Below, one piece after another: positions 2,876 through 28,865 of a DNA stretch of 49,550 nt (within the stretch, counting starts at the first letter, position 1; the number at the start of each line of letters is the position of its first letter). The position numbers and the translations under genes were made by a program. The notes beneath the pieces were generated by a model. That model was not told where the DNA came from. It made no database searches and saw only the letters and a list, made by a program, of their open reading frames with translations. The DNA lies in assembly GCF_003852405.1 (NCBI RefSeq), contig NZ_QAJM01000030.1:1-49550 (forward strand), in the 5' to 3' direction. The stretch comes from Pseudomonas sp. KBW05. Lineage in GTDB: Bacteria; Pseudomonadota; Gammaproteobacteria; Pseudomonadales; Pseudomonadaceae.

Positions 2876-3219
2876 GATTTGTGTTTTTTCAGCTGGGATT
2901 GAGGTACTCCCGTCCAACCTCGGGTTCCTCATTCCGTCACATCCCAAGCTCTATACGGCCTCCAGCCCGACCCACTGAAACCTCGCTGTCACCTACCCCC
3001 AAACCGCTCAAAACCATGACCAAAACACCCGAGAATCTTTTTAAAAATCAAGCGTTTCCTCCCGAGGTTTTTTCCCATAACCGTCATCGGAAACTGCGAC
3101 TTTCTCTCCCATGGTTTTCACCCCTGGCCACCCCCGCAAGACGGCTTGGGACCGAAGCCATGGCGTCATGCAAGAGCCATCTACCCCAAACGTACAAACA
3201 CGACGAAAGGAGCTTCTTC
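2876..3219. other. Long leader region upstream of lapA
   Basis: A 344-bp stretch with no supported gene. It happens to stay open in the lapA frame, but its translation is unlike a signal sequence, and the real lapA start has a strong ribosome site at 3206-3212. It holds a perfect 9-bp inverted repeat, AACCTCGGG at 2916-2924 and CCCGAGGTT at 3061-3069, the latter followed by a run of T. It also holds a Pho-box-like sequence GCGTCATGCAAGAGCCAT at 3164-3181, sharing GTCATGCAA with the pdtA element. A phosphate-starvation promoter is expected here by family knowledge, but the exact sites are uncertain. Confidence 0.35.
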
Positions 3220-5818: not shown

Positions 5819-5866
5819 ATGAACTTTGCATGACAGAAGTTCAGTCGCGCCCCTCGCCAACCGCCT
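5819..5866 (+). promoter_or_regulatory. Putative PhoB box plus ECF-sigma promoter of pdtA
   Basis: Positions 5819-5836 read ATGAACTTTGCATGACAG. On the opposite strand this is CTGTCAT, four bases, AGTTCAT: a Pho box whose first half is a perfect match to the consensus. AGTTC follows at 5838-5842 and, 18 bases later, CCGCCT at 5861-5866. The same three blocks at exactly the same spacing occur upstream of phdA (18687-18734). AGTTC/CCGYCT resembles -35/-10 elements of an ECF sigma factor; in P. aeruginosa this locus is known to be under PhoB and the FecI-like sigma VreI. The pairing is seen in the sequence; factor identity is inferred. Confidence 0.6.
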
Positions 5867-5924
5867 AACCCTCATACGTGCGCCTGTCTTGCCCCGGGGC
5901 GCTAACAAAGAAGGAAGATTCCCG

Positions 5925-17900: not shown

Positions 17901-18431
17901 GACAACTGGGGCAACGTGAGCCTGTCGCCGTCGGTGCCGAGTACCGGCGCGGGCATCGCCACGCTCAACCCGATCCCGGAAGTGCCGGCGGGGGACATCG
18001 ACTTGATCGCACCGCTGGGCACCATCGATGCGGGCGAGGCGGGCATTCGCGTGTCGGGCAACATCAACATCGCGGCCCTGCGGGTGGTGAACGCGGCGAA
18101 CATCCAGACCCAGGGCAAGTCGTCCGGGGTGCCGGTCTCGGCCACGGTCAACACCGGCGCCATGAGCTCGGCCAGCGCGGCGGGGGCGGCGGCGTCCCAG
18201 GCCGCAGAAGACGCCGCGCGCAACCAGCAGGCGGCGGCGAAGCAGGGGCGGCCGTCGATTGTCACCGTGGAAGTGCTGAGCTTTGGCACGGAGCCGGTAC
18301 CGCGTGAGCCGGAGCAGAAGAGCTCCAGCTACAACCCCAACAGCCCGGTGCAGGTGCTGGGCGCCGGGCCGCTGAGCGAACAGGCGCGGGCGCGGTTGAC
18401 GGATGAGGAGCGCCAACAGATCAGTTTGTAG
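5925..18431 (+). CDS. pdtA: Giant two-partner-secretion exoprotein PdtA (filamentous haemagglutinin family, TpsA)
   Basis: A 4,168-residue secreted beta-helical adhesin, the TpsA partner of PdtB. The start at 5925 has AAGGAA about 8 bases upstream and gives a long TpsA-type signal peptide (charged N-region, core LAQAIALLMVAGNAHA near 27-42). The upstream open frame runs through the promoter and is rejected. The TPS/haemagglutination domain spans about 120-400, with the NANG turn (218-221) replacing the usual NPNG. A long body of beta-helix repeats (G-x-I/L-D/N-x-S/A patterns, DASG and DVSG turns) follows, then a conserved DUF3739-like C-terminal third ending in an Ala/Gln-rich tail. The only cysteines found in the mature chain are three close pairs (about 2026-2031, 3043-3051, 3097-3104). 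Residues about 2790-2925 form an unusual run of xGTxL steps. No autotransporter barrel is present, as expected for TPS. P. aeruginosa PdtA is induced by phosphate depletion and linked to virulence; the role here is inferred. Confidence 0.88.
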   Translation: MVRCKPTLKLNAQGPRAQTVLRLKPLAQAIALLMVAGNAHAAQAFSAAWFAEKGATRATTAARLSAGQVPGMPTLSQQAQVNQRLARSISTLNTSVAAIAAQQAAQAAGRQAALGQVSNIPDGLGKGGLQVDNSLTQGWINAKAPTQSQAGGKTTVSIEQTADKAILNWETFNVGRNTTVDFQQQSNWAALNRVNDPNARPSEIQGQIKGAGTVMIINANGVVFGGTSQVNVRNLVAAAANITDEQFTQRGLYVDTTGTQPTFTDAAGKVEVQRGALIQTHNAATSTDAGGYALLLGTEVENAGTIITAKGQTTLAAGDSFYIRKGVGTAGNERSTTRGNEVATALNFESAAGKVSNSGLIMASTGDITLTGHQVQQNGVALASTSVDTRGTIHLLNSASDTTGSVTLGAGSTTAILLDASGSTALNTQKNNGLTLLDGKPANLIDGQFDHLSAVADRTDQSRIEIVSGGTVDFQKGSITLATGGQVAVSAGQRSLVRDGAVIDVSGAVGVKVAMEANNIKINVQGNEQRDVAVNRDNGQLINNDVWVDLRELVFVAAGTNGYATDRWYTAGGLLEVGGYLGTQGHSVGEWMAQGGTVTFTGKDVVTQQGAQINLSGGTVDVQDGYIRQTWLKGPDRRLYELSRAPGDILYSGIYKGYEDTSVRWGQTEYYYNPLIAPQGRNEAGYTVGRDAGKLVVGTTSAVLEGQVVSDVFQGERQMQAPAINLDGYQQSQNAMAQRAQLIIGQYVPIYNKTTGTLRYALGATAEQVLIDSNTQKIADGLDLTTELPTERQGQIVLDSEQLNGYQLGAVKVAANQQVSVNGALNVADGGTITLFAPGVAVNANLTAHGGSIHAGNILSQVDPLKDGAVADTILPGDGSLTVAEGVKLDVSGRWNNLLLDAANNTGVAYVNGGKVSLRGTGNISLAAGSVVDASSGATLGVDGKLAGGKGGNVTLSALGALGLDGELRGYGVNGGGTLALQTRKVQIGDSAVAADADTLKLAGDFFNKGFSAYDITGNEGLLVTDGTQVDVSAPVLRAGEQALSAVTGSDPAIGLERWTPELYQEDAIKGVLTQRRGATLSLNAGEINSTAEQMASTVLTVGQGAVINVDPGQAINLRSVGQLNMDGTLNAWGGSITLGGLRAAASDAVNSLGHGRSIWVGEHALIDAAARAATALDNRGRAYGVVRDGGTINIGGTLDLATGIATASDLFVVVREGARLDASGTQAPLNIAGQGLVQQASNGGSISLASNNGLYLDGSFVARAGGAGAAGGSLAVALESPNYERFTAVDQVLKGRELLISQTHQRHDLAGTPEDAAAGLEYGHGRLGVDQVSAGGFDNLALMSNGIMGFDGDVALAMGQSLRLFGSAFALSENAADDSRVSLSAPYLLLSGINTPGKDQYIRPIIELPKPSFLETVAQFNASGNLIDVRGSVLFGLKGSLNQADWSLLDIERRGFDQVNLTSQGDLRFLAGPNENEIAPGISTQLLTQGDMTLRAAQLYPGTQASARVIAGYLGAEGNNSIQFDPLRTLTIGRTGTADAAMPYSAFGRLQLGAATVRQGGVVRAPLGLIDIGSMGSSLVQLLPGSLTSVSGKGLVLPYGGTLDGQEYRYNGQKVTFIGQGGVATAMSDLSVGVILGGTTVAVQPQATLDLSGGGELLGAGFISGRGGSTDARFNPLVQFGANGGFVLPGLATNPVYAIVPGIQTGAAPVAPEGGASAPMVGQQVTIGAGVPGLPAGTYTLMPSTYALLPGAFRVEVNGLAGLGSDAATTLMRNGSWATSGHLSIANTGISNSIASQLILTSADTLRRYSQYNETSYAQFAKADAARLGVPRPMLEADAKTLKLALRPGAGADGFSFEGVGRFEAASGGYGGTVAVTDPTWQGIEVIGAGKAATADYAGITLKADTLNALGASRLVVGGMTVVEYGQSGNFIGLAGGLNGANSTVTLREGATLAAPEVFLVSDTGGIVVEQGASINTLGRGKASYDARDGFIYQVLNMLAVSNGLLNVVSARPQSIVSQGINVGACDSGACSGGTGLYSDGSIVALTDGTFQLGDSVRYGTRHLNLGVSAINLGSVEALAAAGNRVPAGLTLTQALLDRLLRGDTQFGAPALETLQLSARDSFNFYGSTRLDTYDPVTGKSLLSNLMLSTPAMYGAGGANDVATIHTANLIWLGATNAPGTVVTGGAGTGSGRLDINAERIEFGYGDFGQPSNVKSFDRLALGFANVNLNASERVTANHKGSLKVYQSQGAYDPVTGFQYSGGNLTIRTPLMTGVAGSVNRITAGGAIDIGASAGSRGTASGQGAELALQGDSIRVAGAVVLPSGKVSLSARGDVVLTDDALIDVAGRPIAFNDVTQYGWGGDVLLDSRNGNIRQASGSTIDLSAQHNQAGKLRAVATDAAAGIVDLQGKILGSSSGYYAAGGTSMPYEAATVELQAQHLGGSGSLDQQFADLNGRLNQGAVYGGRSFQLKQGDLTIGNGLKAGNISVSLDNGRLRVNGLVDASGERVGSITLAGKHGLTLDGTAVLDAHGSKLRVDSYGKIIDSPNRAMVVLGSGDGQLTLASGARIDLRHGTDGAAGNDGRNRGTLELNAPRLGSNDIAIDASGRVTIQGARSISLNGMATYDDAPEKTDATASGKPYQEITQGYLDGKHALSNDFINAALQNTDLLQNKLAGLNNATYADAFHVRPGVEIVSKTADGDLVVQGDLDLSRYRYASLNPHSQQDNAVYGSGESGSLILRAGGDLNIYGSINDGFAPPPVSADDKGWVLLPGIDYRGGTVVVPGNGVTLADGTAFPAGTTLNYDLPIKGLTVAANTRLPVTATLGQELVLPAGSVVAADVRDAGGNLLFAAGTLLSEAQTLAEGTQLGAGTLLTEGTVLQGMLWPKGVPLPGVHQANPSNNLVLLDGIKDLPKGALIPAGTNVKLPDGVKSVQLRAGGSGQLWAIAPMLAEGTQSWSLRLVAGADTEAADNRILQAHPRSGDLHLADTHYGMFSKQLPPRGVQTWTAAAVTYLAGVGVSAKVGDPVDQAVLDGLNKGSVEDFCGASPQFCLSKVPYTATQSAVNVFAQRGITVALGADLTDEMFSRIGYPAVSVVCVGAPALCQLKFPPEYAAAPASTRLSVIRTGTGDLDLLSAGNLSMDSLYGVYTAGTSSSGTFEGDPYNQPRAKQGVAKTVLSAGSLFEQFVNGSPTSLYRAWYPEAGGNLTITAGGDLTGDITSTTLNTVGRPDPKDIGTDSASVGNWLWRQGSNAVATGGQAQPSAWWINFGSYAATPSGADTMLGFTGFGTLGGGDLTVNVDGNAGVLNTLGYGLSNTAMNPHSQGLVLAVGSTGRVAGDGSLQLTGGGDLRVRIGGSLNPASLASSDDHRDGVLVNLRGDVQLRSATLGSVDLLYGNTSTEQSPGETRAFDPLVSTRGVARGGLTLVPGDATFNVQTLGDLVVQNVEDPGRVPINYASPFAQGTTLGTGASWFTLWTKDTAIDLFSLGGSLTPLSRSSTPTDLAVVYPSILRATAAGGSLYYGKAAEQQSNSDNSFTYPLLLAPGQNGQLQFLAQDSIYAGGMAVSQSGTAQSAMATPWNPAYQGSIGNAVVTSNLSVNGNLVTRALFAFGSGTTAASSAGSTEPARFYAMDGDLVGVSSGRGITFGTNPSDPHQGETWYEGNGAVRMMAGRDIVSSGRIFGLQGLFGSIPTDNLFIHKNPNDISIVSAGRDILFSNFQVAGPGLLEVSAGRNILLTGAGGEHSVTSLGAILPGDTRPGASIVMQAGVGANGPDYQRFVATYLNPLNQAQPGESLQGIKVAKTYENELVTWLAERFGFVGDSEQARAYYAALPAEQQRVFARDVYFAELKAAGREYNEDGGVRQGSYLRGRTAIAALFPDKDVAGNPITYQGDITLFNGSGVHTNAGGSIQMFTPGGGQTFGIEGAAPPSTAGVITQGAGDIQLYSMGSILLGQSRIMTTFGGSIMGWTAAGDINAGRGSKTTVVYTPPKRVYDNWGNVSLSPSVPSTGAGIATLNPIPEVPAGDIDLIAPLGTIDAGEAGIRVSGNINIAALRVVNAANIQTQGKSSGVPVSATVNTGAMSSASAAGAAASQAAEDAARNQQAAAKQGRPSIVTVEVLSFGTEPVPREPEQKSSSYNPNSPVQVLGAGPLSEQARARLTDEERQQISL

Positions 18432-18518: not shown

Positions 18519-18625
18519 GTGGGAGCGGGCTTGTGTGGGAGCGGGCTTGCTCGCGAAGACGGTGGGTCAGCCAGTACATGTATCAACTGACACACCGCAT
18601 TCGCGAGCAAGCCCGCTCCCACACA
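18519..18625. repeat. REP doublet with a partly duplicated left arm
   Basis: Inverted REP pair of the GTGGGAGCGGGCTTGCTCGCGAA type between pdtA and phdA. The left arm is preceded by an extra 15-16 base copy of its own start (TGTGGGAGCGGGCTTG at 18519 and again at 18534), so one arm appears one and a half times. It sits between the pdtA terminator and the phdA promoter. Confidence 0.85.
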
Positions 18626-18686: not shown

Positions 18687-18734
18687 ATGAAGCTTTCATG
18701 ACAAAAGTTCGGTAGCTCCCGCCCACCCCCGTCT
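18687..18734 (+). promoter_or_regulatory. Putative PhoB box plus ECF-sigma promoter of the phdA-pdtB operon
   Basis: ATGAAGCTTTCATGACAA at 18687-18704 reads on the other strand as TTGTCAT, four bases, GCTTCAT, a Pho-box-like repeat with 11-bp period. AGTTC follows at 18706-18710 and CCGTCT at 18729-18734. All three blocks lie at the same offsets (0, 19, 42) as in front of pdtA, although the sequence between them is not conserved. Leader length to the phdA ATG is about 65 bases. Confidence 0.6.
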
Positions 18735-18807
18735 CTCCTATGTAACGCGCTGGATACGATCAAAAGTCGTCGCCAAAGCCGTCAGCAGGACGCCAGGAGT
18801 GGGGCAA

Positions 18808-19410
18808 ATGGGAACTATGGAACGTTACTCGAAAGTCGGTATGCAGGAGCTCGATCAGCGCCTGTCGAAGATCGTCGAAGCCGCGCGCAAGAAGCCGGTT
18901 TCGGTGTACCGCTACGGCGCGCCGTGGGTGTGGATCGTCTCCCAGGACGATTGGCAGGGCGCGTTGAAGGAAGTCTCCAGCTTTATCCCGGCGGGGCATT
19001 CGCTGGTGTTGCTGCGCCCGCAGATCGACGAGGTGCTCGACAGCCATCGCGACTGGCTCCAGCCCGAGCCGGGCATGCTGATTGCGCCGCACACCGTGGT
19101 GCACATCCTCCTGTTGCAACTGCTGTATTCGGTGCCCAGCGAGCAACAACTGCATGAGCAACTCAATTACAACCTGCTGTTCCGCTGGTTCGTCGGCCTC
19201 GACCTGAACCAGAAAGTGTGGGGCATCCATGTCCTGCAACGGGACATCGCCAGCGTGCTGGGCAACCCGCGTGCGGTGCAGTTGATCCAGACCATCATCG
19301 GTGAAGTGTTTTGTGGCGCCTTGCTGCACATGCCGGAGTTCTCGCTGAACTTCGCCTTGCTGCACACCTGGCTGGCCCGGCACAGCCACCTTTCGACAAC
19401 CAGCAATTGA
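18808..19410 (+). CDS. phdA: PhdA-like protein: Phd/YefM-type N-terminus with a DUF772 transposase-like segment
   Basis: A 200-residue cytoplasmic protein, first gene of the pdtB operon. The ATG at 18808 is preceded by CAGGAG with 8-base spacing. Residues 1-52 (YSKVGMQELDQRLSKIVEAA, then VSVYRYGAPWVWIVSQDDW) follow the Phd/YefM antitoxin fold pattern. Residues about 85-150 contain YNLLFRWFVGLDLNQKVW (121-138), the hallmark of the N-terminal domain of IS5-type transposases (DUF772), but no DDE catalytic domain follows. In P. aeruginosa the gene in this position, PA0691, is called PhdA (prevent-host-death) and linked to biofilm lysis control. No toxin gene is next to it. Likely a domesticated DNA-binding regulator of the locus; the regulatory role is inference. 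Confidence 0.68.
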   Translation: MGTMERYSKVGMQELDQRLSKIVEAARKKPVSVYRYGAPWVWIVSQDDWQGALKEVSSFIPAGHSLVLLRPQIDEVLDSHRDWLQPEPGMLIAPHTVVHILLLQLLYSVPSEQQLHEQLNYNLLFRWFVGLDLNQKVWGIHVLQRDIASVLGNPRAVQLIQTIIGEVFCGALLHMPEFSLNFALLHTWLARHSHLSTTSN

Positions 19411-19420
19411 GCAGGCCAAA

Positions 19421-19436
19421 CGCCGTGCAAACGGCG
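19421..19436 (+). other. GNRA-capped hairpin between phdA and pdtB
   Basis: CGCCGT-GCAA-ACGGCG gives a perfect 6-bp stem with a GCAA tetraloop, 11 bases after the phdA stop and 33 bases before the pdtB GTG. No T run follows, so it is not a terminator. It could mark an RNA processing or stability site in the intergenic leader. Confidence 0.4.
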
Positions 19437-19469
19437 ACGGCGCAGAATCTTGGAAAGTTAGGGGGCGGT

Positions 19470-21053
19470 GTGGAGCATCTGTTCAAGTCAACGCTGGCGC
19501 TGTGCTGCCTGACGCTGGGGGCCTTGGCCTTGCCCGCGCAGGCCGAGGAGGAGGGCGCGGCACGCCGGGTGGACGTCAACGAGTACTTCGTGCGCGGCAA
19601 TACCGTGCTCGATGCGGCGGCGATCGAAGAGGCGGTGTACCCGTTTCTCGGCCCGCAAAAGACCTTGGGCGATATCGAAGGCGCCCGCGATGCGCTGCAA
19701 AAGATCTACCAGGCGCGCGGCTACCAGTCGGTGTTTGTCGAGCTGCCGGAGCAGAAGGTCGATGACGGTATCGTCTACCTGCAAGTCAGCGAAACCAAGA
19801 TCGGCCGTGTGCGAGTGGTCGGCGCCAAGCATTACTCGCCGGTGGAAATCCGCGACGAAGTGCCGGCCCTCAAGGAAGGCGAAGTGCCGGACTTTGCCAC
19901 CGTGCAAACCCAGCTCGCCGGCCTCAACCGCGGCGTCGGGCGCCAGGTCACGCCGCTGGTGCACGAAGGCCAGCGCCCCGGCACCATGGACGTGGACTTG
20001 CAGGTGGAAGACCAGAACCCCTGGCACGCCAGCCTCGGCCTGAACAACGACTACAGCGCCGACACTGAAAAGCTGCGCTCGGTGGCTACCCTGGGCTACG
20101 ACAACCTCTGGCAACTGGGCCACAGCGTGTCGCTGACCTATTTCACCGCGCCCCAGGACAGCAGCAACGCCAAGGTCTGGTCCGGTTCCTACAGCGCGCC
20201 GCTGGATGAGCGCTGGACCTTGCAGTTCACCGGCTACCAGTCCGACAGCAACATCGCCACCATCGGCGGCAGCAACGTGCTTGGCAAGGGCCATTCCTAC
20301 GGCGTGTCGGCGATCTACAACCTGCCGGCGACCAATGTCTGGGCCAACTCCTTCTCGTTCGGCATCGACTTCAAAGACTTCGACGAAGAGATGCAATTCG
20401 GCGCCAGCCGCGACCAGGTGCCGCTCAAGTACGCGCCGTTCACCCTTGGCTACAACGGCTATCGCTACACCGAGCAATCCCAGCTGGGCCTGGGCCTGAA
20501 CCTGGTGGTGGGCACCCGTGCGTTCTTTGGCTACGGCAGCGATGCCGAAGAGTTCGACTACAAGCGCTACAAGGCCAGCGCCAGTTTTGCGGTGCTCAAG
20601 GGCGACCTGAATTACACCTACACCTTCGCCAACAACTGGCAGTCGGCGTCGAAGGCGGCGTTCCAGCTGGCCTCGGGGCCGCTGGTGTCCAACGAGCAGT
20701 ATTCCGCCGGCGGCGCCACCTCGGTGCGCGGTTACCTGGCGGCAGAGCGCACTGGGGACGAAGGTTACTTGCTGTCCCAGGAGCTGCGCACGCCGTCGGT
20801 GGCCAAGTACCTCGGCAGTTATGTGCAGGAGTGGCGCTTCTATGCGTTCGCCGAAGGCGCACGCCTGCGCCTGCACGACCCGCTGCCCGAGCAAGAAGAC
20901 GAATACAGCCTGGCCAGTGTCGGCCTGGGCACCCGCGCCAGTTTGAGCAAATGGTTATCCGGCAGCCTGGATTGGGGCTACCCGCTGCTCAATGGACCGA
21001 ACACCCAGAAACAGGACTCGCGACTGCACTTCAGTGTGCAGGCGACTTTCTGA
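19470..21053 (+). CDS. pdtB: Two-partner-secretion outer-membrane transporter PdtB (TpsB/ShlB family)
   Basis: Outer-membrane Omp85-family pore that recognises the TPS domain of PdtA and moves it across the outer membrane. The GTG start at 19470 was chosen because it opens a clean signal peptide (core LALCCLTLGALALPAQA); the in-frame extension upstream lies inside phdA. Of 527 residues, about 33-108 and 109-185 are two POTRA domains (FVRGNTVLDAAAIEEAV; RVRVVGAKHYSPVEI), and about 190-527 form the 16-strand barrel. The lid-loop motif VRGY sits at 419-422 (GGATSVRGYLAAE). The last residue is Phe, as usual for outer-membrane barrels. Unusually, the partner exoprotein gene is upstream in its own unit, with phdA between them. 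Confidence 0.88.
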   Translation: MEHLFKSTLALCCLTLGALALPAQAEEEGAARRVDVNEYFVRGNTVLDAAAIEEAVYPFLGPQKTLGDIEGARDALQKIYQARGYQSVFVELPEQKVDDGIVYLQVSETKIGRVRVVGAKHYSPVEIRDEVPALKEGEVPDFATVQTQLAGLNRGVGRQVTPLVHEGQRPGTMDVDLQVEDQNPWHASLGLNNDYSADTEKLRSVATLGYDNLWQLGHSVSLTYFTAPQDSSNAKVWSGSYSAPLDERWTLQFTGYQSDSNIATIGGSNVLGKGHSYGVSAIYNLPATNVWANSFSFGIDFKDFDEEMQFGASRDQVPLKYAPFTLGYNGYRYTEQSQLGLGLNLVVGTRAFFGYGSDAEEFDYKRYKASASFAVLKGDLNYTYTFANNWQSASKAAFQLASGPLVSNEQYSAGGATSVRGYLAAERTGDEGYLLSQELRTPSVAKYLGSYVQEWRFYAFAEGARLRLHDPLPEQEDEYSLASVGLGTRASLSKWLSGSLDWGYPLLNGPNTQKQDSRLHFSVQATF

Positions 21054-21077
21054 CTTTTTCTTTCGGAGACTTCACCC

Positions 21078-22877
21078 ATGCAACGCCTAATCCTGAGCCT
21101 GTTGATCTGCCTGGGCTTCACGCTCCCGGCCACCGCCCATGCCTGGTGGCAAGACGACTGGCACTACCGCAAACAGATCACCGTGGACACCACCGCCCAA
21201 GGCGCCGCGATCAACCAGGCCCTGGGCCGCACCTCGCTGCTGGTGCGCCTGCACACCGGCAACTTCACCTTTGATGGGGTGAAGGACGACGGCGCCGACC
21301 TACGCTTTGTCAGCGCCGATGACAAGACCGTGTTCAACCACCAGATCGAAAGCTTCGACCCGCTGATGGGCATGGCGCTGATCTGGGTCGATGTGCCCAA
21401 GGTCGAAGGCGGCCAGCGCCAGGACCTGTGGATGTACTACGGCAACCAGAAAGCCCCGGCCACCAGCAACGGCCAATTGGCGTTCGACCCGAACTACACC
21501 GCGCTGTACCACTTTGACGGTGCCAACGGCACCCCGGCCCGCGACACCACGGCTTACGCCAACACGTCTCTCAACGCCACTGGCGCGAGCATCGACGGCG
21601 TGATCGGCCGCGCCTTGCAGTTCGGCGGCCAGCCGCTGCTGTTGCCGGCCAGCCCATCGCTGCAACACGCCGCGGGCGGCGCGTTCACCTTCAGCGCCTG
21701 GTTGCGCCTGGATCAGGCCAGTGGCGAGCAGATCGTCCTGGCGCGCCGCGACGGTCCCCATAGCCTGCTGCTGGGGCTGAACCAGGGCACGCCGTTTGTG
21801 GAAGTCGATGGCCAACGCGTGGTCTCCACCCAACCGCTGAACCCTGGCCAATGGCAGCACCTGGCGTTCACCGCCGAGGGTGAAAAAATCGCCCTGTTTG
21901 TTAATGGCCGCGAGACGGCCAGCCTGGCGGTTGCGCTGCCAGCGTTCAATTCTCAACTGGCCATCGGCGGCGATCTGCCGGACGCCGGAACCGCGCATCT
22001 GCCGTTCGCCGGCGCCATCGATGAGCTGCGCCTGTCCAAGGTTGCGCGCCCGGCCACCTTGCTGTTGGCCGATGCCAGCGCCCAAGGCGCGGAGTCGAAA
22101 CTGGTGGCTTACGGCGTGGATGAAGAACAGTCGGGCTTCGGTTTCGGCAGCCTGGGCTTCTTGCTCAACGCCGTGCCGGTGGACGCCTGGGTGATCATCC
22201 TGGTGCTGGTGGCGATGATGTTCCAGTCGTGGGTCATCATGCTGCGCAAGAACCGCCAGGTCAGTCGCGTCAGCGGTGCCAACGAGATTTTCCGCGAGCA
22301 CTTTGCGCAGATCGGCACGCGCCTGGAGATGTATGCCGATGACGCCCAGCTTGGCGCGCGCTTGCAGCATTCGTCGCTGTGGCGCCTGTACCTGGTGGCG
22401 GTCAAGGAAATCCGCACCCGCCGCGCCCAGGGTGCCGACACCTCGTCCGTCTCGGCGGCGACCATCGAAGCCATCCGCTGCTCCATGGACGGCGTGCGCA
22501 CCCGCGAAAACCAGGCCCTCAGTTCCAAGCTCTCGACCCTGTCCAACGCCATCGCCGGCGGCCCGTACATCGGCCTGCTCGGCACTGTGCTGGGGATCAT
22601 GGTGGTGTTCCTCGGCACGGCCATGGCCGGTGACGTGAACATCAACGCCATCGCCCCGGGTATGGCTGCGGCCTTGCTGGCCACGGCCATGGGCCTGTTC
22701 GTCGCGATCCCGGCGCTGTTTGGCTACAACCGCCTGATCACGCGCAACAAGGAAGTCAGCGCGGACATGCGTGTGTTCGTCGATGAGTTCATCACCCGCC
22801 TGGCGGAGATGCACGGCGAGAGCCAGTCCAGTGAAGCCGCGCACCGCCGCGAGCATCACGCTGCCGTACCGGCCTGA
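21078..22877 (+). CDS. exbB2: ExbB/TolQ-type proton channel with extracytoplasmic DUF2341 and LamG-like domains
   Basis: Inner-membrane proton-channel subunit that would energise the TonB encoded two genes downstream. At 599 residues it is over twice the size of ordinary ExbB. After a signal peptide (cut near AHA-WWQ, residue 22) come a DUF2341 domain (DDWHYRKQITVDTT through DLWMYYGN, about 23-130) and a LamG/concanavalin-like sandwich (LYHFDGANG ... FTFSAWLRL ... WQHLAFTAEGEKIALFVNG ... GAIDELRLSKVARP, about 140-335). The MotA/TolQ/ExbB part follows, with spans near 368-388, 494-518 and 532-553 and the GGPYIGLLGTVLGIM signature. The large periplasmic module may sense a glycan or the adhesin. 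exbD follows after 11 bp. The gene at this place in P. aeruginosa is named exbB2. Confidence 0.85.
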   Translation: MQRLILSLLICLGFTLPATAHAWWQDDWHYRKQITVDTTAQGAAINQALGRTSLLVRLHTGNFTFDGVKDDGADLRFVSADDKTVFNHQIESFDPLMGMALIWVDVPKVEGGQRQDLWMYYGNQKAPATSNGQLAFDPNYTALYHFDGANGTPARDTTAYANTSLNATGASIDGVIGRALQFGGQPLLLPASPSLQHAAGGAFTFSAWLRLDQASGEQIVLARRDGPHSLLLGLNQGTPFVEVDGQRVVSTQPLNPGQWQHLAFTAEGEKIALFVNGRETASLAVALPAFNSQLAIGGDLPDAGTAHLPFAGAIDELRLSKVARPATLLLADASAQGAESKLVAYGVDEEQSGFGFGSLGFLLNAVPVDAWVIILVLVAMMFQSWVIMLRKNRQVSRVSGANEIFREHFAQIGTRLEMYADDAQLGARLQHSSLWRLYLVAVKEIRTRRAQGADTSSVSAATIEAIRCSMDGVRTRENQALSSKLSTLSNAIAGGPYIGLLGTVLGIMVVFLGTAMAGDVNINAIAPGMAAALLATAMGLFVAIPALFGYNRLITRNKEVSADMRVFVDEFITRLAEMHGESQSSEAAHRREHHAAVPA

Positions 22878-22888
22878 GGAGAATCAGC

Positions 22889-23314
22889 ATGGCTTCCGTA
22901 AACGCCTCCCACGACGATGACGATGATGCCGCCGTCGATAGCATCAACATCACGCCCCTGGTGGACGTGCTGATGGTGGTGCTGGTGATGTTTATCCTCA
23001 CCGCCACCGCCCAGGTCTCGGGCATTCAGATTCATTTGCCCAAGGCCAGCGCCTCGGTGTCGCTGTCGGAGGCCAAGACCAAGGCGATCTCCGTCAACGA
23101 CGGCGGCCAGGTGTTCCTCGACGCCTACCCGGTGACTCTCGGCGAGCTGGAAGAGCGCCTGCGCATCGAGAAAGCGCAGAACCCGGACTTCCCGGTGATC
23201 GTGCGCGGCGACGCGTTGGTGCAGTACCAGAAGGTGATCGAGGTACTCGACTTGCTGCGACGGCTGGAGCTGTCCCAGGTCGGGCTGGTCACCGGCAAAC
23301 CGAGCCAGGGCTGA
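22889..23314 (+). CDS. exbD2: ExbD/TolR-type channel subunit
   Basis: Single-span inner-membrane partner of ExbB; its membrane aspartate carries the proton path. The 141-residue product has a cytoplasmic Asp-rich start (five Asp in a row at 9-13), one transmembrane helix at about 21-43 with the essential Asp26 in PLVDVLMVVL, and a periplasmic ExbD/TolR domain (HLPKASASVSLSEAKTKAISV ... ALVQYQKVIEVLDLLRRLELSQVGLVT). AGGAGAA precedes the ATG. It lies 11 bp after exbB and 3 bp before the TonB gene, so the three are surely co-expressed. Confidence 0.9.
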   Translation: MASVNASHDDDDDAAVDSINITPLVDVLMVVLVMFILTATAQVSGIQIHLPKASASVSLSEAKTKAISVNDGGQVFLDAYPVTLGELEERLRIEKAQNPDFPVIVRGDALVQYQKVIEVLDLLRRLELSQVGLVTGKPSQG

Positions 23315-23317
23315 GCC

Positions 23318-24022
23318 ATGACCGCACAGATCCCGATGCCGCCACTGCCGGTCAAGAACAAGCCGCCGCTGCGCCCGTTGAAGTGGGGCGCAGGCCTTTT
23401 GCTGGGCGCTGTGGCGGCCTGGTTCTTGTGGCAGTGGGCCAATGACATGAGTGGCGTGCGCCGCGAAGCGCCAAAGATCCCGACGATTATCCCGTTGCCG
23501 CCACCGCCACCGCCGCCACCGGAAAAGCCCAAGGAGCCTGAGCCCCAGGTCGAAGAAAAAATCCCCGAGCCGGTGCCCACGCCCGAGCCGGAAGAGGTCA
23601 AGCCCGCGGACGAAGCACCGCCTTCACCGGCGGACGATTTGGCCAACCCGATGCAGATCGACGGCGATGCCCAGTCGGGCAATGACGGTTTCAACATCGG
23701 CGCCGGCAAAGGCGGCGGTATGGCCGGTTCCGGTGGTGGCGGTTTGGGTACCGGCACTTACAAGCAGTACCTGGCAGGGGTGTTTCAGCGCCTGCTGCGC
23801 GAAGACCCGGAGTTGCGCAAGAAGGCGTACGCGGTGCAGGCCGATTTGTGGCTGAACGCCGATGGCCAGGTCACCCGTGCCGAGTTGGCCAAGTCCAGCG
23901 GTGATGCCGAGACCGATGCCCAGGTGTTGGCCGCCTTGCGGGCGCCCCATGCCACGCAACGGGTGCCAGCCGCCGTAACGATGCCGGTACGCCTGTCCCT
24001 CAAGGGCCGGCGCCCGGAATGA
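23318..24022 (+). CDS. TonB-like energy transducer
   Basis: Periplasm-spanning protein that passes the ExbB/ExbD proton-driven force to an outer-membrane partner. Of 234 residues: a cytoplasmic Pro-rich start, one membrane anchor at about 24-40 (GAGLLLGAVAAWFLWQW), a rigid Pro/Glu-rich rod at 52-105 with eight consecutive Pro at 61-68, a Gly-rich hinge at 128-146, and a TonB-C-type domain at about 147-232 (YKQYLAGVFQRLL ... ADLWLNADGQVTRAELAKSSGD). It lacks the usual YP motif of classical TonB. No TonB-dependent receptor is encoded nearby; the downstream porin or PdtB are candidate partners (inference). The stop overlaps an ATG of the next frame, but the porin start is placed 41 bp further on. 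Confidence 0.82.
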   Translation: MTAQIPMPPLPVKNKPPLRPLKWGAGLLLGAVAAWFLWQWANDMSGVRREAPKIPTIIPLPPPPPPPPEKPKEPEPQVEEKIPEPVPTPEPEEVKPADEAPPSPADDLANPMQIDGDAQSGNDGFNIGAGKGGGMAGSGGGGLGTGTYKQYLAGVFQRLLREDPELRKKAYAVQADLWLNADGQVTRAELAKSSGDAETDAQVLAALRAPHATQRVPAAVTMPVRLSLKGRRPE

Positions 24023-24063
24023 TCGAACCCTTTTCTACGGTTTTTTACAGGAGTTGCGTACAC

Positions 24064-25764
24064 ATGATTTCCCCCGTGAATCGACTGACCCTGGCGGTCG
24101 GCATGGTCATCGCGACCCTGGTTGGCCAAGCGACGGCCGCCCCGGTTGCACCTTCGGAAAACGTCACCATCAACCTGATCCGCCTGTTGGTGCAGCAGGG
24201 CGTGTTGACCCAGGACACCGCCAACGGGCTGATTGCCCAGGCGGAAAAAGAAGCCCTGCAAGCGCGCCAGGCGAATGCCGCGCCGGTGGTCGCCGCAGGG
24301 CCTGCGGCAGCGCCGGGGGATGTGCGCGTGCAGTACGTGCCGCAAGCGGTGCGTGACCAGATCCGCGACCAGGTGAAAGCTGAAGTCATGGCCACCGCCA
24401 AGCAGGAAAACTGGGCCCAGCCCAATACCTTTCCGGATTGGGTATCCCGCGTGACCTTTGATGGCGATATCCGCCTGCGTGACGAGTCGCGCTACTTTTC
24501 GGGCAAGAACGACGACACCATCACCGACTACGCCAAGCTCAACAACAACGGGCCGTATGACGTCAATCCGAACTCCAGCACGCAACTGCCGCCGTTGCTC
24601 AACACCCGCGAAGACCGCGAAAACCTGTTCCGCATCCGCGCCCGCCTGGGCATGAAGGCGGTGATCTCGCCGGAATGGACCGCCGGCATCCGCCTCGGCA
24701 CCGGCTCCGACAACAACCCGGTGTCCACCACCCAGACCCTCGGCGGTGGTTTTGGCAAAAAGGACATCTGGCTCGACCAGGGTTACCTGAGCTGGAAAGC
24801 CTCGGACATGATCACTTTGACCGGCGGGCGGATTGCCAACCCGTTCTATTCCACCGACATGATGTATTCCAACGACCTCAACTTCGACGGCGTGGCGGCG
24901 ATCTTCAACCACCGCCTCGCCAGCGACTGGAACCTGTTCGGCACCCTCGGCGCGTTCCCGGTGGAATACACCTCGGACACCGCCAGCAGCAACGGCTTCG
25001 ACAAGGAAGAAAGCGACACCAAATGGCTGTTTGGCGGGCAGATCGGCGCCGATTGGAAGATCAACCGCAGCAACAACCTCAAGCTTGCGGGCGCCTACTA
25101 CCAGTTCCAGAACATCGAAGGCGAGCGCTCCAGCCTGTGCAAACCGTGGGAAGGCAAGCCGGGTTGCGACACCGACGGCTCGCGCGTGGCCTTTATGCAA
25201 AAGGGCAACAGCGTGTTCAACCTGCGCGACATCGCGCCCAACCCGGCCACCCCAGGCAAGACGCCGGAGCCGCAGTTCGTGGGCCTTGCGTCCAAGTTCA
25301 ACATCCTCGACCTCAACGCGGTGTGGGACAGCGAGTTGCCGAGCGATTTCAAGCTGCGCAGCCAAGCCAACTTCATCCACAACCTGGGCTACGACAAGGG
25401 CGAGATGCTCAAGCGCAGCGAAGGGCACATCGTCAACAACCTCAACAGCAACGGCGAGTTTGAAAGTGGCGGCAATGCGTTGATGGTCTCGTTCACCCTC
25501 GGCAGTGCCCTGGAGATGCGCAAGCGCGGCGACTGGAACGTGTTGGCTGGCTACAAATACATCCAGCCCGACGCCTTGCCTGATGGCTTCAACGACTCGT
25601 CGTTCCACCTCGGTGGTACCAACGCCAAGGGCTACTTCATTGGTGCCAACTACGGCATCGAAAAGAACATCTACGCCAGTGCGCGTTGGTTGAGCGCCTC
25701 GGAAGTCTACGGCCAGCCGTTTGAAGTGGATGTGATGCAACTGGAACTCAACACGCGCTTCTGA
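24064..25764 (+). CDS. Putative outer-membrane porin (Porin_5-like)
   Basis: A 566-residue outer-membrane protein. The ATG at 24064 has CAGGAG 11 bases upstream and begins a signal peptide (VNRLTLAVGMVIATLVGQATA-A); an earlier ATG overlapping the tonB stop has no ribosome site. Residues about 25-115 form a periplasmic helical segment (NLIRLLVQQGVLTQDTANGLIAQAEKEALQAR), typical of the putative porin family with an N-terminal coiled coil. From about 135 onward amphipathic strands alternate with loops (VTFDGDIRLRDESRYF ... RIRARLGMKAVISPEWTAGIRLG), ending in Phe. Substrate is unknown; position after tonB suggests it could be energised or be an envelope partner of the secretion locus. Confidence 0.78.
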   Translation: MISPVNRLTLAVGMVIATLVGQATAAPVAPSENVTINLIRLLVQQGVLTQDTANGLIAQAEKEALQARQANAAPVVAAGPAAAPGDVRVQYVPQAVRDQIRDQVKAEVMATAKQENWAQPNTFPDWVSRVTFDGDIRLRDESRYFSGKNDDTITDYAKLNNNGPYDVNPNSSTQLPPLLNTREDRENLFRIRARLGMKAVISPEWTAGIRLGTGSDNNPVSTTQTLGGGFGKKDIWLDQGYLSWKASDMITLTGGRIANPFYSTDMMYSNDLNFDGVAAIFNHRLASDWNLFGTLGAFPVEYTSDTASSNGFDKEESDTKWLFGGQIGADWKINRSNNLKLAGAYYQFQNIEGERSSLCKPWEGKPGCDTDGSRVAFMQKGNSVFNLRDIAPNPATPGKTPEPQFVGLASKFNILDLNAVWDSELPSDFKLRSQANFIHNLGYDKGEMLKRSEGHIVNNLNSNGEFESGGNALMVSFTLGSALEMRKRGDWNVLAGYKYIQPDALPDGFNDSSFHLGGTNAKGYFIGANYGIEKNIYASARWLSASEVYGQPFEVDVMQLELNTRF

Positions 25765-25783
25765 TGCGCACAGGAGATGCCAC

Positions 25784-26410
25784 ATGAACACGCGAATCTG
25801 CGGGCTGCTGTTGTTGTTCGTCGCCACCGGCGCCAGCGCCGAAGGCATGGAAGAGCGCCTGCGTACCCAACTGCGCAGCACCACCCAGCAGTTGCAGGCG
25901 TTGCAAAGCGAACAGGCCCAGGCCAGTGCCGCGCGCATCGCCGCTGAAACCCAGGCCAAACAGGCCCAGGCGCAGATCAAGCAATTGACTGCCGAGCTGG
26001 AAAAGACCCGTGGCGTCGCCGAGCAAATGGCCGGCCAGCAACAAAGCCTGCACAGCCAGGCGCAAGCCCAGGTGGCGGCGAGCAACGAGCAGATCGGCAA
26101 GTTCAAGAAGGCCTACGAGGAACTGCTGGTGCTGGCCAAGGGCAAGGAAGCCGAGCGCGCCGGCCTGCAAGCCAAGCTGAGCGAACGTGACACACAAGTG
26201 CAGCAATGCGCAGTCAAGAATCAACAGATGTACGGCGTGGCCCAGCAACTGCTGGCGGCCTACGAAAAAATCGATGTGGCTGAGGTGATGAGTATCCGCC
26301 AGCCCTTCGCCAGCGGTGCGCGGGTCAAGTTCGAGGAACTGGCCCAGGGCTTTGGCGACGATTTGTACAAGAGCCGTTTTGATGCGCCCCAGGCAACTGC
26401 CAATCACTGA
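25784..26410 (+). CDS. Periplasmic coiled-coil protein of unknown function
   Basis: A 208-residue protein I do not recognise beyond its place in this operon. A signal peptide (CGLLLLFVATGASA, cut near residue 19) leads into a long heptad-rich, Gln/Ala-rich helix at about 22-150 (LRSTTQQLQALQSEQAQASAAR and similar), then a short C-terminal region with one Cys and VAQQLLAAYEKIDVAEVM. It could be a periplasmic spacer or scaffold linking the Ton complex to the outer membrane, in the manner of YbgF/CpoB with Tol-Pal; that comparison is inference. AGGAG precedes the ATG, 19 bp after the porin stop. Confidence 0.6.
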   Translation: MNTRICGLLLLFVATGASAEGMEERLRTQLRSTTQQLQALQSEQAQASAARIAAETQAKQAQAQIKQLTAELEKTRGVAEQMAGQQQSLHSQAQAQVAASNEQIGKFKKAYEELLVLAKGKEAERAGLQAKLSERDTQVQQCAVKNQQMYGVAQQLLAAYEKIDVAEVMSIRQPFASGARVKFEELAQGFGDDLYKSRFDAPQATANH

Positions 26411-26430
26411 TCGACAAGGAAGACTTCACC

Positions 26431-26898
26431 ATGAGCGAATTGATCACCAGCGTCACCGTCCAGAGCCTCACCGAGCTGCTGCAAGAAGCCGGCTACCGGG
26501 TCAACCCGAGCGAGCAGAACGGCATCGTGCAATTGCTCAGCGCCAGCCAGGGCATCGGCTTTGCCGTGCGCTTCGGCAACCCGGCGGGCGAGCAGGGCGG
26601 CTATGTGGATTTCACCTACAGCTGTGCACTGCGCATCCAGGGCGAACTGCCGGAAGGCCTGGCCCAGGTGTGGAACGCTTCGCGCCGCTTTGCGCGGTTG
26701 TCGGTGCAGGGTGAATTCCTGCTGATGGAAATGGACGTGGTGGTGGCGGGCGTCAGCGTCACCTACCTGCGCAGCCAGCTGGAACTGTGGGACCGCCTGT
26801 TGCAGGAATTCATTGTCTACCTGCGTGAATACAGCCAGCAGGCCGCGCAGTTGCAGGCCGCCGCGCAATCGGTGGGCGAAGAGGCGGCGGTATTGTGA
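26431..26898 (+). CDS. YbjN-domain protein
   Basis: A 155-residue soluble protein with no signal peptide. It matches the YbjN fold pattern, related to type III secretion chaperones: SLTELLQEAGYRVNPSE, then VRFGNPAG, VDFTYSCALRIQG, a WNASRRFARLSVQGEFLLMEMDVVV segment and a C-terminal helix that is Gln/Ala-rich. A cytoplasmic chaperone or adaptor for one of the large locus proteins is plausible, but no function is shown. AAGGAAG precedes the ATG. Its TGA overlaps the GTG start of the isomerase gene by four bases, so the two are translationally coupled. Confidence 0.7.
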   Translation: MSELITSVTVQSLTELLQEAGYRVNPSEQNGIVQLLSASQGIGFAVRFGNPAGEQGGYVDFTYSCALRIQGELPEGLAQVWNASRRFARLSVQGEFLLMEMDVVVAGVSVTYLRSQLELWDRLLQEFIVYLREYSQQAAQLQAAAQSVGEEAAVL

Positions 26899-27731
26899 AA
26901 AAGCCAACCTTGATGGTCGGCGCGGGTGCGCTGGCCTTGCTGGTGGTGGCCGTGGGCTTGAGCCTGCGGCCGGGCAGCGACCCGGTGGCGGCGCAGCAGC
27001 CGGCGCCGGTGCTCGCGACGCCGGCGGGGGGGCCGGCGGTGGCGCGCCTGGGCAACCAGCAGATCGACCTGACGGAAATGCAAAGCGTGCTGGCGAGCCT
27101 GCCGGCCGAGACCCGCGAGCAGTTGCGCGGCAACCGTGGCGCACTGGAAACCTGGCTGCGTTCACGCCTGGCGCAAAAGGCCGTGCTGGAACAGGCCGAC
27201 GCCCAGGGCTGGCGTCAGCGCCCGGAGGTGGAGCAACAGACCCGCGCCGCCACTGAGCAGATCGTGTTTCGCGACTACATGCTCTCGGTCAGCCAAGTGC
27301 CGGCGGGCTATCCCAGCGCGGCTGAGCTGCAACAGGCCTACGACGCCGGCAAGGCGCAGTGGGTGACGCCGCCGATGGTTCGGGTGAGCCAGATTTTCCT
27401 CGCCGTGAACGACCCGCAATCTGCCGAAGCGGTACGCCGCCAGGCCCAGGAACTGAGCCGCAAGGCCCAGGCCACGCCGGGGGATTTCGCCACCCTGGCC
27501 ACGCAATATTCCCAAGACCCGAACACCGCTCCGCGTGGCGGCGATTCGGGGATGCAGCCGTTGCAGCAACTGGTGCCGCAGGTTCGCGAGACGGTGGCGC
27601 GGCTCAAGGTCGGTGGTGTGTCCGACGTGGTGCAGAGTGCGGCGGGCTTCCATGTGCTCAAGCTCACTGCCCAGCAACCGGCGCGCACGGCGACGTTGGA
27701 TGAACTGCGCGTACGCCTGACCGAGGCCTAG
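26895..27731 (+). CDS. Membrane-anchored parvulin-type peptidyl-prolyl isomerase, C-terminus cut by an in-frame stop
   Basis: Periplasmic prolyl isomerase/chaperone of the PpiC/SurA class, probably helping fold PdtA, PdtB or the porin. The start is GTG at 26895, overlapping the previous stop. A signal anchor at about 6-24 is followed by a SurA-N-like helical region (VARLGNQQIDLTEMQSVLASL) and the parvulin domain at about 155-262 (VRVSQIFLAV ... PGDFATLATQYSQDPN ... GGDSGMQPLQQLVPQVRE ... GVSDVVQSAAGFHVLKL). The TAG at 27729-27731 is followed in the same frame by 34 more sense codons (RSQRQEQIAKAYLEGML...) ending at TAG 27834-27836, exactly the helix that normally ends this family. So the printed product of 278 residues lacks its native tail; a CAG-to-TAG change, or a sequencing error, is likely. 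Confidence 0.8.
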   Translation: MKKPTLMVGAGALALLVVAVGLSLRPGSDPVAAQQPAPVLATPAGGPAVARLGNQQIDLTEMQSVLASLPAETREQLRGNRGALETWLRSRLAQKAVLEQADAQGWRQRPEVEQQTRAATEQIVFRDYMLSVSQVPAGYPSAAELQQAYDAGKAQWVTPPMVRVSQIFLAVNDPQSAEAVRRQAQELSRKAQATPGDFATLATQYSQDPNTAPRGGDSGMQPLQQLVPQVRETVARLKVGGVSDVVQSAAGFHVLKLTAQQPARTATLDELRVRLTEA

Positions 27732-27836
27732 CGCAGTCAACGCCAGGAGCAGATCGCCAAGGCCTACCTGGAGGGCATGCTCAACACCGCCACCTTGAGT
27801 ATCGACGGTGCCGAGCTGAACAAGGTGCTGGAGTAG
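27732..27836 (+). other. Orphaned in-frame C-terminal extension of the isomerase gene
   Basis: Continues the isomerase frame after its TAG for 34 codons to a second TAG. The translation has an amphipathic helix (QEQIAKAYLEGMLNTATLSI) followed by DGAELNKVLE, the usual end of SurA/PpiC-like foldases. It has no start codon or ribosome site of its own, so it is the remnant of the longer original gene and not a separate gene. Confidence 0.75.
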
Positions 27837-27887: not shown

Positions 27888-28865
27888 ATGGCATATCTAG
27901 AACCGTCCGGCCCCCAGGCGCCCACCGCTTATCGTGGGGCGAGCGAGCCGCGCCGCAGTTGGCCGGCTTTGGCCTGCGAGATCGAACCGGAGGTGGCGCG
28001 CTACTTTCTGGTGAGTGCGCGCTGTGGCTGTTTCATGCAGGCGGCGCGCAGCCTGAATATCAAATCGACGCTGTTGCGCAAGCGCCTGGCGCAGCTGGAA
28101 GAGCAGGTGCGCCATGCGCTGTTCACTTATCAGGGCAACGGCCTGGTGCTCAGTCGCGACGGCCTGCAATTGCAGGCGCAACTGATTGCGCTGGCCCATG
28201 AACGGCGCCTGCCGGTGGTGGAACAGCCGCTGATCCGCCTGGCGGTGGCCGAACCGATCCTGCACGACATCCTTGGTCGCGACCTGATCGCCTTGCTGCG
28301 CCGCAACGCCAGCGTGCGCCTGGAGATCATCTCTATCGACAGCCACTTGTCCCTGCAAGCGGTGGACGTGGACGTGGTGCTGTGGCTGTCCGACACCGAC
28401 GGCTCAGCGCCCGGCCCTAGCTTTCCCATCCAACCGCCACGCCCGCTGGCGCGCCTGCATTACCTGCCGCATATCGCCAAGCGCTACTCACGGCTGACCA
28501 CCCGCCCGGACAGCGTCGATGACCTCGACGACTACATGCTCGTGCAATGGCAGCCCGACGTGCAGGTCGACGCCTTGCAACCGTGGAACCACGTGGTAGA
28601 CCAACGCCGCGCCGCCGTGGTGCAAGTGCAGGCCTACTCGCTGATGCTGGAAATGATCCGCTGCGGCGCCTGCATCGGCTTGCTGCCGCACTACATGAGC
28701 AGCTTCGACCGCGGCCTGGTGGCGCTGCCGGGGTTGTTGGCCGACAGCATGCAGCGCCAGGTGTGGCTGGCGGTAAATGCCCAGGTGCAGGATGCCCAGG
28801 CGGTGCAGGTGATTGTCGAGTTGATCGTTGGGACGTTTGAGGGGCGCAAGGAGTGGTTTGAGTGA
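27888..28865 (+). CDS. LysR-type transcriptional regulator at the end of the pdt locus
   Basis: A 325-residue DNA-binding regulator. An N-terminal extension of about 30 residues precedes the winged helix-turn-helix (VARYFLVSARCGCFMQAARSLNIKSTLLRKRLAQLEEQV, about 38-75), in which the usual STVSRRI core reads STLLRKRL; an LF...G..L.LS..G wing and a LysR substrate domain (residues about 115-320) follow. GGGAG precedes the ATG. It stands 51 bp after the isomerase frame end and on the same strand, so it may be part of the operon. A LysR gene is at the same place in P. aeruginosa (PA0701, as I recall). Its ligand and targets are unknown; controlling this locus is a reasonable guess only. Confidence 0.78.
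   Translation: MAYLEPSGPQAPTAYRGASEPRRSWPALACEIEPEVARYFLVSARCGCFMQAARSLNIKSTLLRKRLAQLEEQVRHALFTYQGNGLVLSRDGLQLQAQLIALAHERRLPVVEQPLIRLAVAEPILHDILGRDLIALLRRNASVRLEIISIDSHLSLQAVDVDVVLWLSDTDGSAPGPSFPIQPPRPLARLHYLPHIAKRYSRLTTRPDSVDDLDDYMLVQWQPDVQVDALQPWNHVVDQRRAAVVQVQAYSLMLEMIRCGACIGLLPHYMSSFDRGLVALPGLLADSMQRQVWLAVNAQVQDAQAVQVIVELIVGTFEGRKEWFE

Follow-up and report, generated by a model that had tools for sequence, protein, structure and literature searches.

In canonical two-partner secretion, exemplified by FhaB/FhaC and CdiA/CdiB, a TpsA exoprotein bearing a TPS domain is paired with a TpsB transporter built of POTRA and a ShlB barrel, and the portions of the literature available describe the process as independent of an external energy source (PMC5422565, PMC9355242), with an N-terminal plug helix (H1) and linker as a specific TpsB feature (PMC9355242). 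In the Haemophilus HxuCBA system, according to the part of the source available, a protein secreted by this route acts with an outer-membrane receptor (PMC4873976). The 49,550-nt stretch of Pseudomonas sp. KBW05 analyzed here in full (hereafter the window; contig C24 of genome G000) carries a locus with the same TPS domain, POTRA and ShlB barrel, in which the giant TpsA, PdtA, ends in a DUF3739 domain. This DUF3739 module departs from canonical systems in a TpsB that in most cases appears to be plug-less, and in the addition of a proton motor (ExbB-ExbD-TonB) and a Porin_5 porin. It also departs from HxuCBA: whereas HxuC is a haem receptor, the module channel is a predicted plug-less Porin_5 barrel of 16 long strands, and the motor genes belong to the module itself.

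A counterpart of this locus is known in P. aeruginosa, where the sigma-VreI-regulon operon PA0690-PA0701 comprises pdtA, phdA, pdtB, exbB2, exbD2, tonB4 and PA0696-PA0701. According to the available portions of the P. aeruginosa studies, the promoter PphdA transcribes phdA through PA0701, pdtB included (PMC4971064), the sigma-VreI regulon of this species is a phosphate-starvation response with a signalling system of the type usual for uptake (PMC2729926, PMC7035377, PMC4971064), PUMA3 clusters accompany TPS, ExbBD and PA0696 homologues in six other genomes (Llamas 2009, PMC2729926), and exbB2-exbD2-tonB4 is still an uncharacterised putative TonB system (PMC7035377). An earlier note on this DNA, made from its letters alone, had given the gene order as conserved in P. 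aeruginosa, and the window indeed agrees with the printed list at PA0690-PA0699 and PA0701; for PA0700, no window gene could be identified as the counterpart. Its further remark that the joint function is undescribed holds for the Ton genes, printed as uncharacterised, but the gene association itself was already partly in print (PMC2729926). In the portions available, the PUMA3 literature gives neither a tie to DUF3739 TpsAs nor strict co-occurrence with separate loci, and is also silent on plug-less TpsBs, on the two linear motifs and on the VreA match described below. No description of energised two-partner secretion was found in the open-licence literature, judged by titles and starts of abstracts.

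In the window, to which all coordinates refer, pdtA (5826-18431) is followed by phdA, pdtB, exbB, exbD, tonB, the porin gene and genes for a coiled-coil protein, a YbjN-family protein and a parvulin (18799-27731), all on the forward strand. Intergenic gaps range from -4 to 41 bp from pdtB through parvulin, with 59 bp between phdA and pdtB and 367 bp between pdtA and phdA. Open reading frame (ORF) positions and Pfam matches bear out the gene set, order, single strand and tight packing next to a giant TpsA gene that the earlier note had claimed, and its statement that the window holds no TonB-dependent receptor stands across 35 scanned ORFs (including 28 of the 46 ORFs of at least 250 amino acids (aa), the other 18 overlapping scanned ORFs in another frame or strand). 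Nor did these scans reveal a Tol-Pal partner. Chance or annotation error as the origin of the gene set is ruled out by the domain scores together with the spacing of the operon. Its central features are as follows:

5826..18431, forward strand: pdtA, giant TpsA exoprotein, with Pfam TPS domain near 6354-7145 and DUF3739 at 17805-18137; the 5' start codon is provisional
18252..18287, forward strand: PdtA C-terminal tail motif PSIVTVEVLSFG, from conserved alignment columns; predicted disordered, candidate docking strand
19470..21053, forward strand: pdtB, TpsB transporter (POTRA and ShlB barrel), predicted to be without the N-terminal plug-helix/linker region; inferred GTG start
21078..22877, forward strand: exbB, with signal peptide, DUF2341, LamG (lectin-like) and then a TolQ/ExbB-type proton channel
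22889..23314, forward strand: exbD, TolR/ExbD-type subunit with transmembrane Asp26
23318..24022, forward strand: tonB, with inner-membrane anchor, Pro-/Gly-rich rod and TonB_2 C-terminal domain near 23762-23968
24064..25764, forward strand: Porin_5 porin, an N-terminal periplasmic leader preceding a predicted barrel with 16 long strands; inferred ATG start
24322..24342, forward strand: porin leader motif VRVQYVP, low-confidence coil between helices; candidate TonB-box analogue

What is new here is that the motor and porin track the DUF3739 subfamily of TpsAs, not two-partner secretion generally. Among 299 Pseudomonadota genomes, DUF3739 was found in nine and DUF2341 in eight, all within those nine; in the ninth (G284), exbB is severed by a contig end. 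Porin_5 was matched in 12 genomes, comprising the same nine at 390 bits or more and three (G237, G286, G154) with partial matches only, of at most 108 bits. The TPS domain was present in 105 genomes including all nine, and the other 96 therefore have the domain without DUF3739, DUF2341-ExbB or full-length Porin_5, and so without the motor. Among 150 Pseudomonas genomes, DUF3739, DUF2341 and full-length Porin_5 (at least 579 bits) mark an identical set of 48; in both surveys genome counts ignore kinship, so that independence is overstated.

A third survey comprised the best 80 of 339 loci from named genomes, retrieved by ExbB alone, with more distant ExbBs falling outside it and at least two genomes contributing two loci. 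Our own hidden Markov models (HMMs) detected exbD in 79, tonB in 75, the porin in 73 and TpsA or TpsB in 74 of these loci, which, going by record names, span alpha-, beta- and gammaproteobacteria as well as Verrucomicrobiota; among accessory genes, the coiled-coil protein was found in 61, parvulin in 24 (one a weak 39-bit match) and YbjN in 20. In twelve loci exbD, tonB, the porin or Tps is missing: six stop at a contig end soon past exbB/exbD, two lie on contigs shorter than 4.6 kb, and the remainder are L121, L127, L147 and L162. The TpsA C-terminal region lies inside 36 of the 80 loci, and whole-genome searches for the remaining 44 identified DUF3739 in 41 (10/10 plus 31/34), placing a DUF3739-type TpsA in the locus or genome for 77/80. 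The controls were 40 hand-picked regions, each surrounding a TPS domain over at most 20 kb; they come from 39 genomes of the Pseudomonadota survey, include no DUF3739 locus and do not all cover the entire TpsA and both flanks. TpsB was found in 36 of these, and exbB, exbD, tonB or porin in none (E 0.001), with an exbB HMM whose power to detect ordinary ExbB is not established and a tonB HMM that finds, at E <0.001, three of the four other TonBs of the window's own genome read in the right frame, L006 being the one missed.

The earlier note had cast the Ton genes as a dedicated energiser encoded with a two-partner-secretion adhesin. The dedication stands for DUF3739-type TpsAs (77/80 loci; identical sets of 48 among the 150 Pseudomonas genomes), and the genome survey that it had set as a check found ExbB/porin sets not commonly free of TpsA or TpsB. 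As a feature of two-partner secretion in general, the motor is ruled out by the 0/40 control loci and the 96 motor-less among the 105 TPS genomes. A dedicated partnership of motor, Porin_5 porin and DUF3739 TpsAs is well supported, and we hold it with high confidence.

The association is retained when the genes are unlinked. In Pseudomonas, 2.8-4.3 kb separate the starts of the ExbB and porin matches in 47/47 genomes with both on one contig, and TpsB adjoins ExbB in the loci read. Of the 48 genomes, 35 have TpsA and ExbB on the same contig, within 15 kb in 17 and at ~36 kb or more in 18, and the other 13 have them on different contigs. In three Pseudomonas genomes (G430, G403, G319) TpsA stands alone within its 20-kb region, and a TpsB-ExbB-ExbD-TonB-porin-coiled coil-YbjN-parvulin block lies 0.7-0.8 Mb off. 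Two metagenome-assembled genomes (MAGs; G300 and G301, behind L127 and L147), for which mis-binning is a caveat, carry a TpsB-TpsA pair on one contig, with ExbB-ExbD-TonB joined by the porin and coiled-coil genes on a second, the porin of L127 being on the opposite strand. G268 divides its genes between C29 (TpsA, TpsB, porin and coiled coil) and C17 (ExbB-ExbD-TonB). Judged by the distances to contig ends, 20 kb or more lie between the motor and both TpsA and TpsB in G268, G300 and G301. The module thus splits in several ways yet its pieces stay within the genome. This speaks for function rather than linkage, and simple linkage is unlikely as the cause of co-occurrence. G299 (L121) was dropped as a separated-motor case because its contig ends lie so near the genes that these could adjoin. 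G302 (L162) carries an extra ExbB-ExbD-TonB set; another set of the same genome is linked to TpsA and TpsB.

The Ton (ExbB-ExbD-TonB) and Tol (TolQ-TolR-TolA) systems have the same subunit types, invariant channel residues and TonB_2 C-terminal domain as the module. Window ExbB matches MotA_ExbB at 91.9, Laminin_G_3 at 74 and DUF2341 at 72 bits, and ExbD its Pfam family at 101.1 bits. ExbB Thr503 and Thr536 are invariant in 81/81 aligned sequences and ExbD Asp26 in 79/79, window included; we take these to be equivalent to the E. coli channel residues, and the proton-channel residues expected of a Ton system are thus in place. The module motor nevertheless differs from both Ton and Tol in the DUF2341 and LamG domains of its ExbB and in its scores. 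Against Ton equivalogs, window ExbB reaches 76.4 of 206.2 (exbB) and 66.5 of 135.4 bits (exbB2), and ExbD 65.3 of 216, 61.6 of 123.5 and 49.9 of 153.0 bits; the Tol cut-offs are also missed (tolQ 150 of 221, tolR 88 of 127.3). In NCBIfam, 9/9 ExbB alignment members match tolQ (best E 6.9e-45) and 9/9 match exbB (best 2e-21), tolR is the best-scoring family for window ExbD and five further ExbD proteins, and among solved structures those closest to window ExbB are of TolQ. The motor subunits hence score nearer TolQ/TolR than ExbB/ExbD, below every equivalog cut-off, a correction to the names ExbB and ExbD given in the earlier note. The TonB C-terminal domain is that of a Ton system by TonB_2 (27.0, cut-off 22) and TIGR01352 (30 of 27.1) but falls below the TonB_C cut-off (17.6 of 24.6), making the TonB call weaker than the other gene calls, and no cognate TonB-dependent receptor lies nearby among the 35 ORFs scanned. 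No described function for a DUF2341-bearing ExbB was found in the open-licence literature, where the available part of one related paper concerns flagellar stators; a Sphingobium multi-Ton system (PMC8599685) is unrelated, judging from the part available. Two consecutive exbD genes stand between exbB and tonB in loci L121, L138, L142, L144, L149-L153, L155 and L156, which are betaproteobacterial going by record names.

PdtB has the composition of a TpsB (POTRA_2 62.9 bits, ShlB 88.1 bits in Pfam), but only 12 residues separate its signal-peptide core from POTRA, and plug helix H1 and linker are not seen. By a hydrophobicity-based estimate, which gave no value for one module and one control sequence, the core-to-POTRA gap has a median of 19.5 residues in 46 module TpsBs and of 49 in 22 controls, and the gap is at most 40 residues in 43/46 versus 2/22. 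Most DUF3739-module TpsBs thus appear to lack the plug-helix region, and pulling by TonB on a free TpsB N-terminus is unlikely for that reason. One control TpsB with no Ton genes in its control region, L203 (G294:C1), scores an unusually high 346 bits to module TpsBs and also lacks the plug region; it is a possible motor-less relative.

PdtA carries the N-terminal TPS domain of a TpsA (PF05860, 94.7 bits, residues 177-440) and a C-terminal DUF3739 (129.1 bits), for which no paper was found in the open-licence literature. Its AlphaFold2 (AF2) model runs from a confident beta-helix through a disordered chain and a helix to a disordered stretch with the tail motif (AF2 block means 46 and 40). The tail consensus in DUF3739 TpsAs is [ILV][ST]-V-E-V-L-G-F-G; a strict regular expression matches 28/37 module TpsA tails versus 0/40 control ORFs and 0/762 background ORFs, although the expression was derived from module tails, so that the contrast with controls is not independent, and some control ORFs are not TpsAs. 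DUF3739 TpsAs are expanded in some genomes, with six matches in G472 (Pandoraea, L095) and five in G470 (L163).

The porin matches PF16930 at 687.4 bits over 1-535, and its model (mean predicted local distance difference test, pLDDT, 89.3) has 16 long strands and no plug domain. A TonB-dependent transporter is a 22-stranded barrel with a plug, which the porin as modelled is not. The porin leader has the consensus V-R-V-x-Y-V-P, with Tyr and Pro each in 56/59 sequences, at a block mean pLDDT of 64 preceded by a block at 49. Reading four other Porin_5 relatives turned up no such motif, though the frame of one (L044) is possibly wrong. In 52 of the 150 Pseudomonas genomes there is only a partial Porin_5 relative, whose best piece scores ~100-132 bits and begins no earlier than profile position 153, and these genomes have no match to the leader and no DUF3739. 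Of PdtB, PdtA and the porin, on any of which the earlier note had suggested that proton force may act, sequence evidence favours the porin (at its leader) and PdtA (at its tail) over PdtB as the protein that would be pulled.

The window's genome also encodes VreA (C36:9307-10050, L084), with an STN domain and a TonB-like C-terminal domain, a two-domain build printed, in the portion available, in 2009. As a single sequence VreA matches the operon TonB at 21 bits, and none of the genome's seven further TonB_C proteins at more than 4.5; a VreA profile gives 56 versus 13 bits; the four profile members were picked by likeness to the operon TonB, which favours that result, and the single-sequence comparison is free of this bias. 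The match suggests that the VreA C-terminal domain and the operon TonB may share an outer-membrane target.

The near-constant company of motor and porin suggests that some step of giant-adhesin export or display is powered. We propose a variant of two-partner secretion with its own proton motor and a powered outer-membrane step acting through strand docking, a reading that we place somewhat on the probable side. It builds on computed features, namely gene content, strict co-occurrence, intact motor residues, TpsBs that in most cases are predicted to be plug-less, and conserved motifs beyond the confidently folded parts. PdtB would export the giant PdtA, while ExbB and ExbD would form a TolQR/ExbBD-like channel in which proton flow drives motion of the TonB rod. 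TonB would dock by strand addition on the porin leader, on the TpsA tail, or on both, and TpsB, porin and TpsA may form a single assembly. The pull would most likely serve a late step, such as engaging or clearing the TpsA tail, rather than bulk export, and might consist of opening, holding or releasing the adhesin at the TpsB/porin assembly. We favour a powered strand-docking step because a motor, a rod and two flexible strand motifs suit a TonB-type pull and the TpsB plug region is mostly absent. More speculatively, and in our view improbably, the module would be a class of two-partner secretion of its own, in which a third type of proton motor, distinct from Ton and Tol alike, takes hold of the periplasmic C-terminal tail of the adhesin and acts on it at the outer membrane, with VreA-type regulators reading the same docking motif through a copy of the same TonB-like domain and tying adhesin expression to the state of the export machine.

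Several observations weigh against powered strand docking or narrow it. Ordinary TPS open frames reach 5,866 aa in genomes without such a motor, ruling out a need for the motor from TpsA size alone and making power for bulk export less likely. Three of the 80 ExbB loci (G466, G471, G478) lack DUF3739 in locus or genome; all are MAGs with ExbB on contigs shorter than 7 kb, two with a linked TpsB. Nine of the 37 module TpsAs give no strict tail match, three of 46 module TpsBs have gaps above 40 residues and two of 22 controls short ones, 13 of 36 control TpsBs failed the POTRA filter (23 passed), and the intermediate confidence of the leader motif makes its disorder uncertain. Insertion mutants in the tonB homologue, PA0696, tpsA and tpsB of P. 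aeruginosa, under vreI overexpression, were as virulent as wild type in zebrafish, an assay that does not test export, in the portion of the report available (PMC2729926). Deletion of vreA, in the text available, left regulon promoters at wild-type activity in low phosphate (PMC4971064), which weakens a VreA-centred signalling role under phosphate starvation.

The main rival is capture and uptake, in which TpsB would export a TpsA that serves as surface trap, the motor powering import through the porin as a TonB-gated importer, much as in HxuA-HxuC. HxuC is TonB-dependent. There is precedent for a TPS protein acting together with a haem receptor (HxuC with HxuB/HxuA, in the available part of PMC4873976), the porin is dedicated, adjoins ExbB in all 47 single-contig Pseudomonas genomes and has a conserved leader motif, and the P. 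aeruginosa regulon, in the available literature, answers phosphate starvation and carries an uptake-type signalling system. We nonetheless consider uptake doubtful: the porin model lacks a plug, the conserved TpsA tail and missing TpsB plug region are left unexplained, and several TpsAs per module are possible, G200 having three DUF3739 matches to a single DUF2341 and a single Porin_5, a one-to-many stoichiometry that favours a shared machine over a private receptor.

Alternatively, motor and porin could stabilise an envelope loaded with so large an adhesin, in Tol-Pal fashion or as an outer-membrane tether, with no action on TpsA, TpsB or export. The nearness of the motor subunits to TolQ/TolR agrees with such a role, as does the porin profile's best solved match, an SLH-domain protein, weak and over 94 positions; but envelope support would predict neither the absence of the module from 96 TPS genomes, some with equally large TPS frames, nor the linear motifs conserved on porin and TpsA tail, and it seems quite unlikely to us. 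Genetic hitch-hiking, with motor genes merely sharing an operon and mobile block with TpsB, fits the constant ExbB-porin adjacency and the TpsB beside ExbB in Pseudomonas, but not a motor retained at a distance of 20 kb or more from TpsA and TpsB, as in G268 and two MAGs, nor a cassette recurring in 80 loci across three proteobacterial classes and Verrucomicrobiota; of this we think very little.

The remaining genes of the operon and its accessory regulator are:

18799..19410, forward strand: phdA, weak Phd-like N-terminus fused to transposase-type DUF772
25784..26410, forward strand: coiled-coil protein with a signal-peptide-like start, no Pfam family above cut-off
26431..26898, forward strand: YbjN-family protein (YbjN Pfam 32.5 bits)
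26895..27731, forward strand: parvulin-type prolyl isomerase (Rotamase Pfam 69.6 bits)
27888..28865, forward strand: LysR-type regulator from the domain scan, accessory, PA0701 counterpart

PhdA, named in P. aeruginosa as a prevent-host-death homologue, here resembles a domesticated Phd-transposase fusion within a secretion operon: Phd_YefM is below threshold (18.4 vs 29.8) and DUF772 above (45.1 vs 23.1). Among the regions of eight other genomes searched, phdA was present in one, Pseudomonas G130. The pdtA-phdA gap holds inverted GTGGGAGCGGGCTTG-type repeats at ~18520-18625, which resemble Pseudomonas repetitive extragenic palindromic (REP) elements. Upstream of pdtA lie E- and F-type genes for type II secretion (130-2759), followed by two tandem PBP_like_2 proteins (2881-4422 and 4536-5738), possible type II substrates and perhaps phosphate-binding, PstS-like.

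Two-partner secretion is the textbook case of energy-free outer-membrane export, and its driving force is still debated. A widespread DUF3739 subfamily that is almost never without its own motor and porin lets energy-free export be tested directly. If the proposal is true, it would assign functions to DUF3739, the DUF2341-ExbB, this Porin_5 porin and the VreA C-terminal domain, none of which was found to have a described one.

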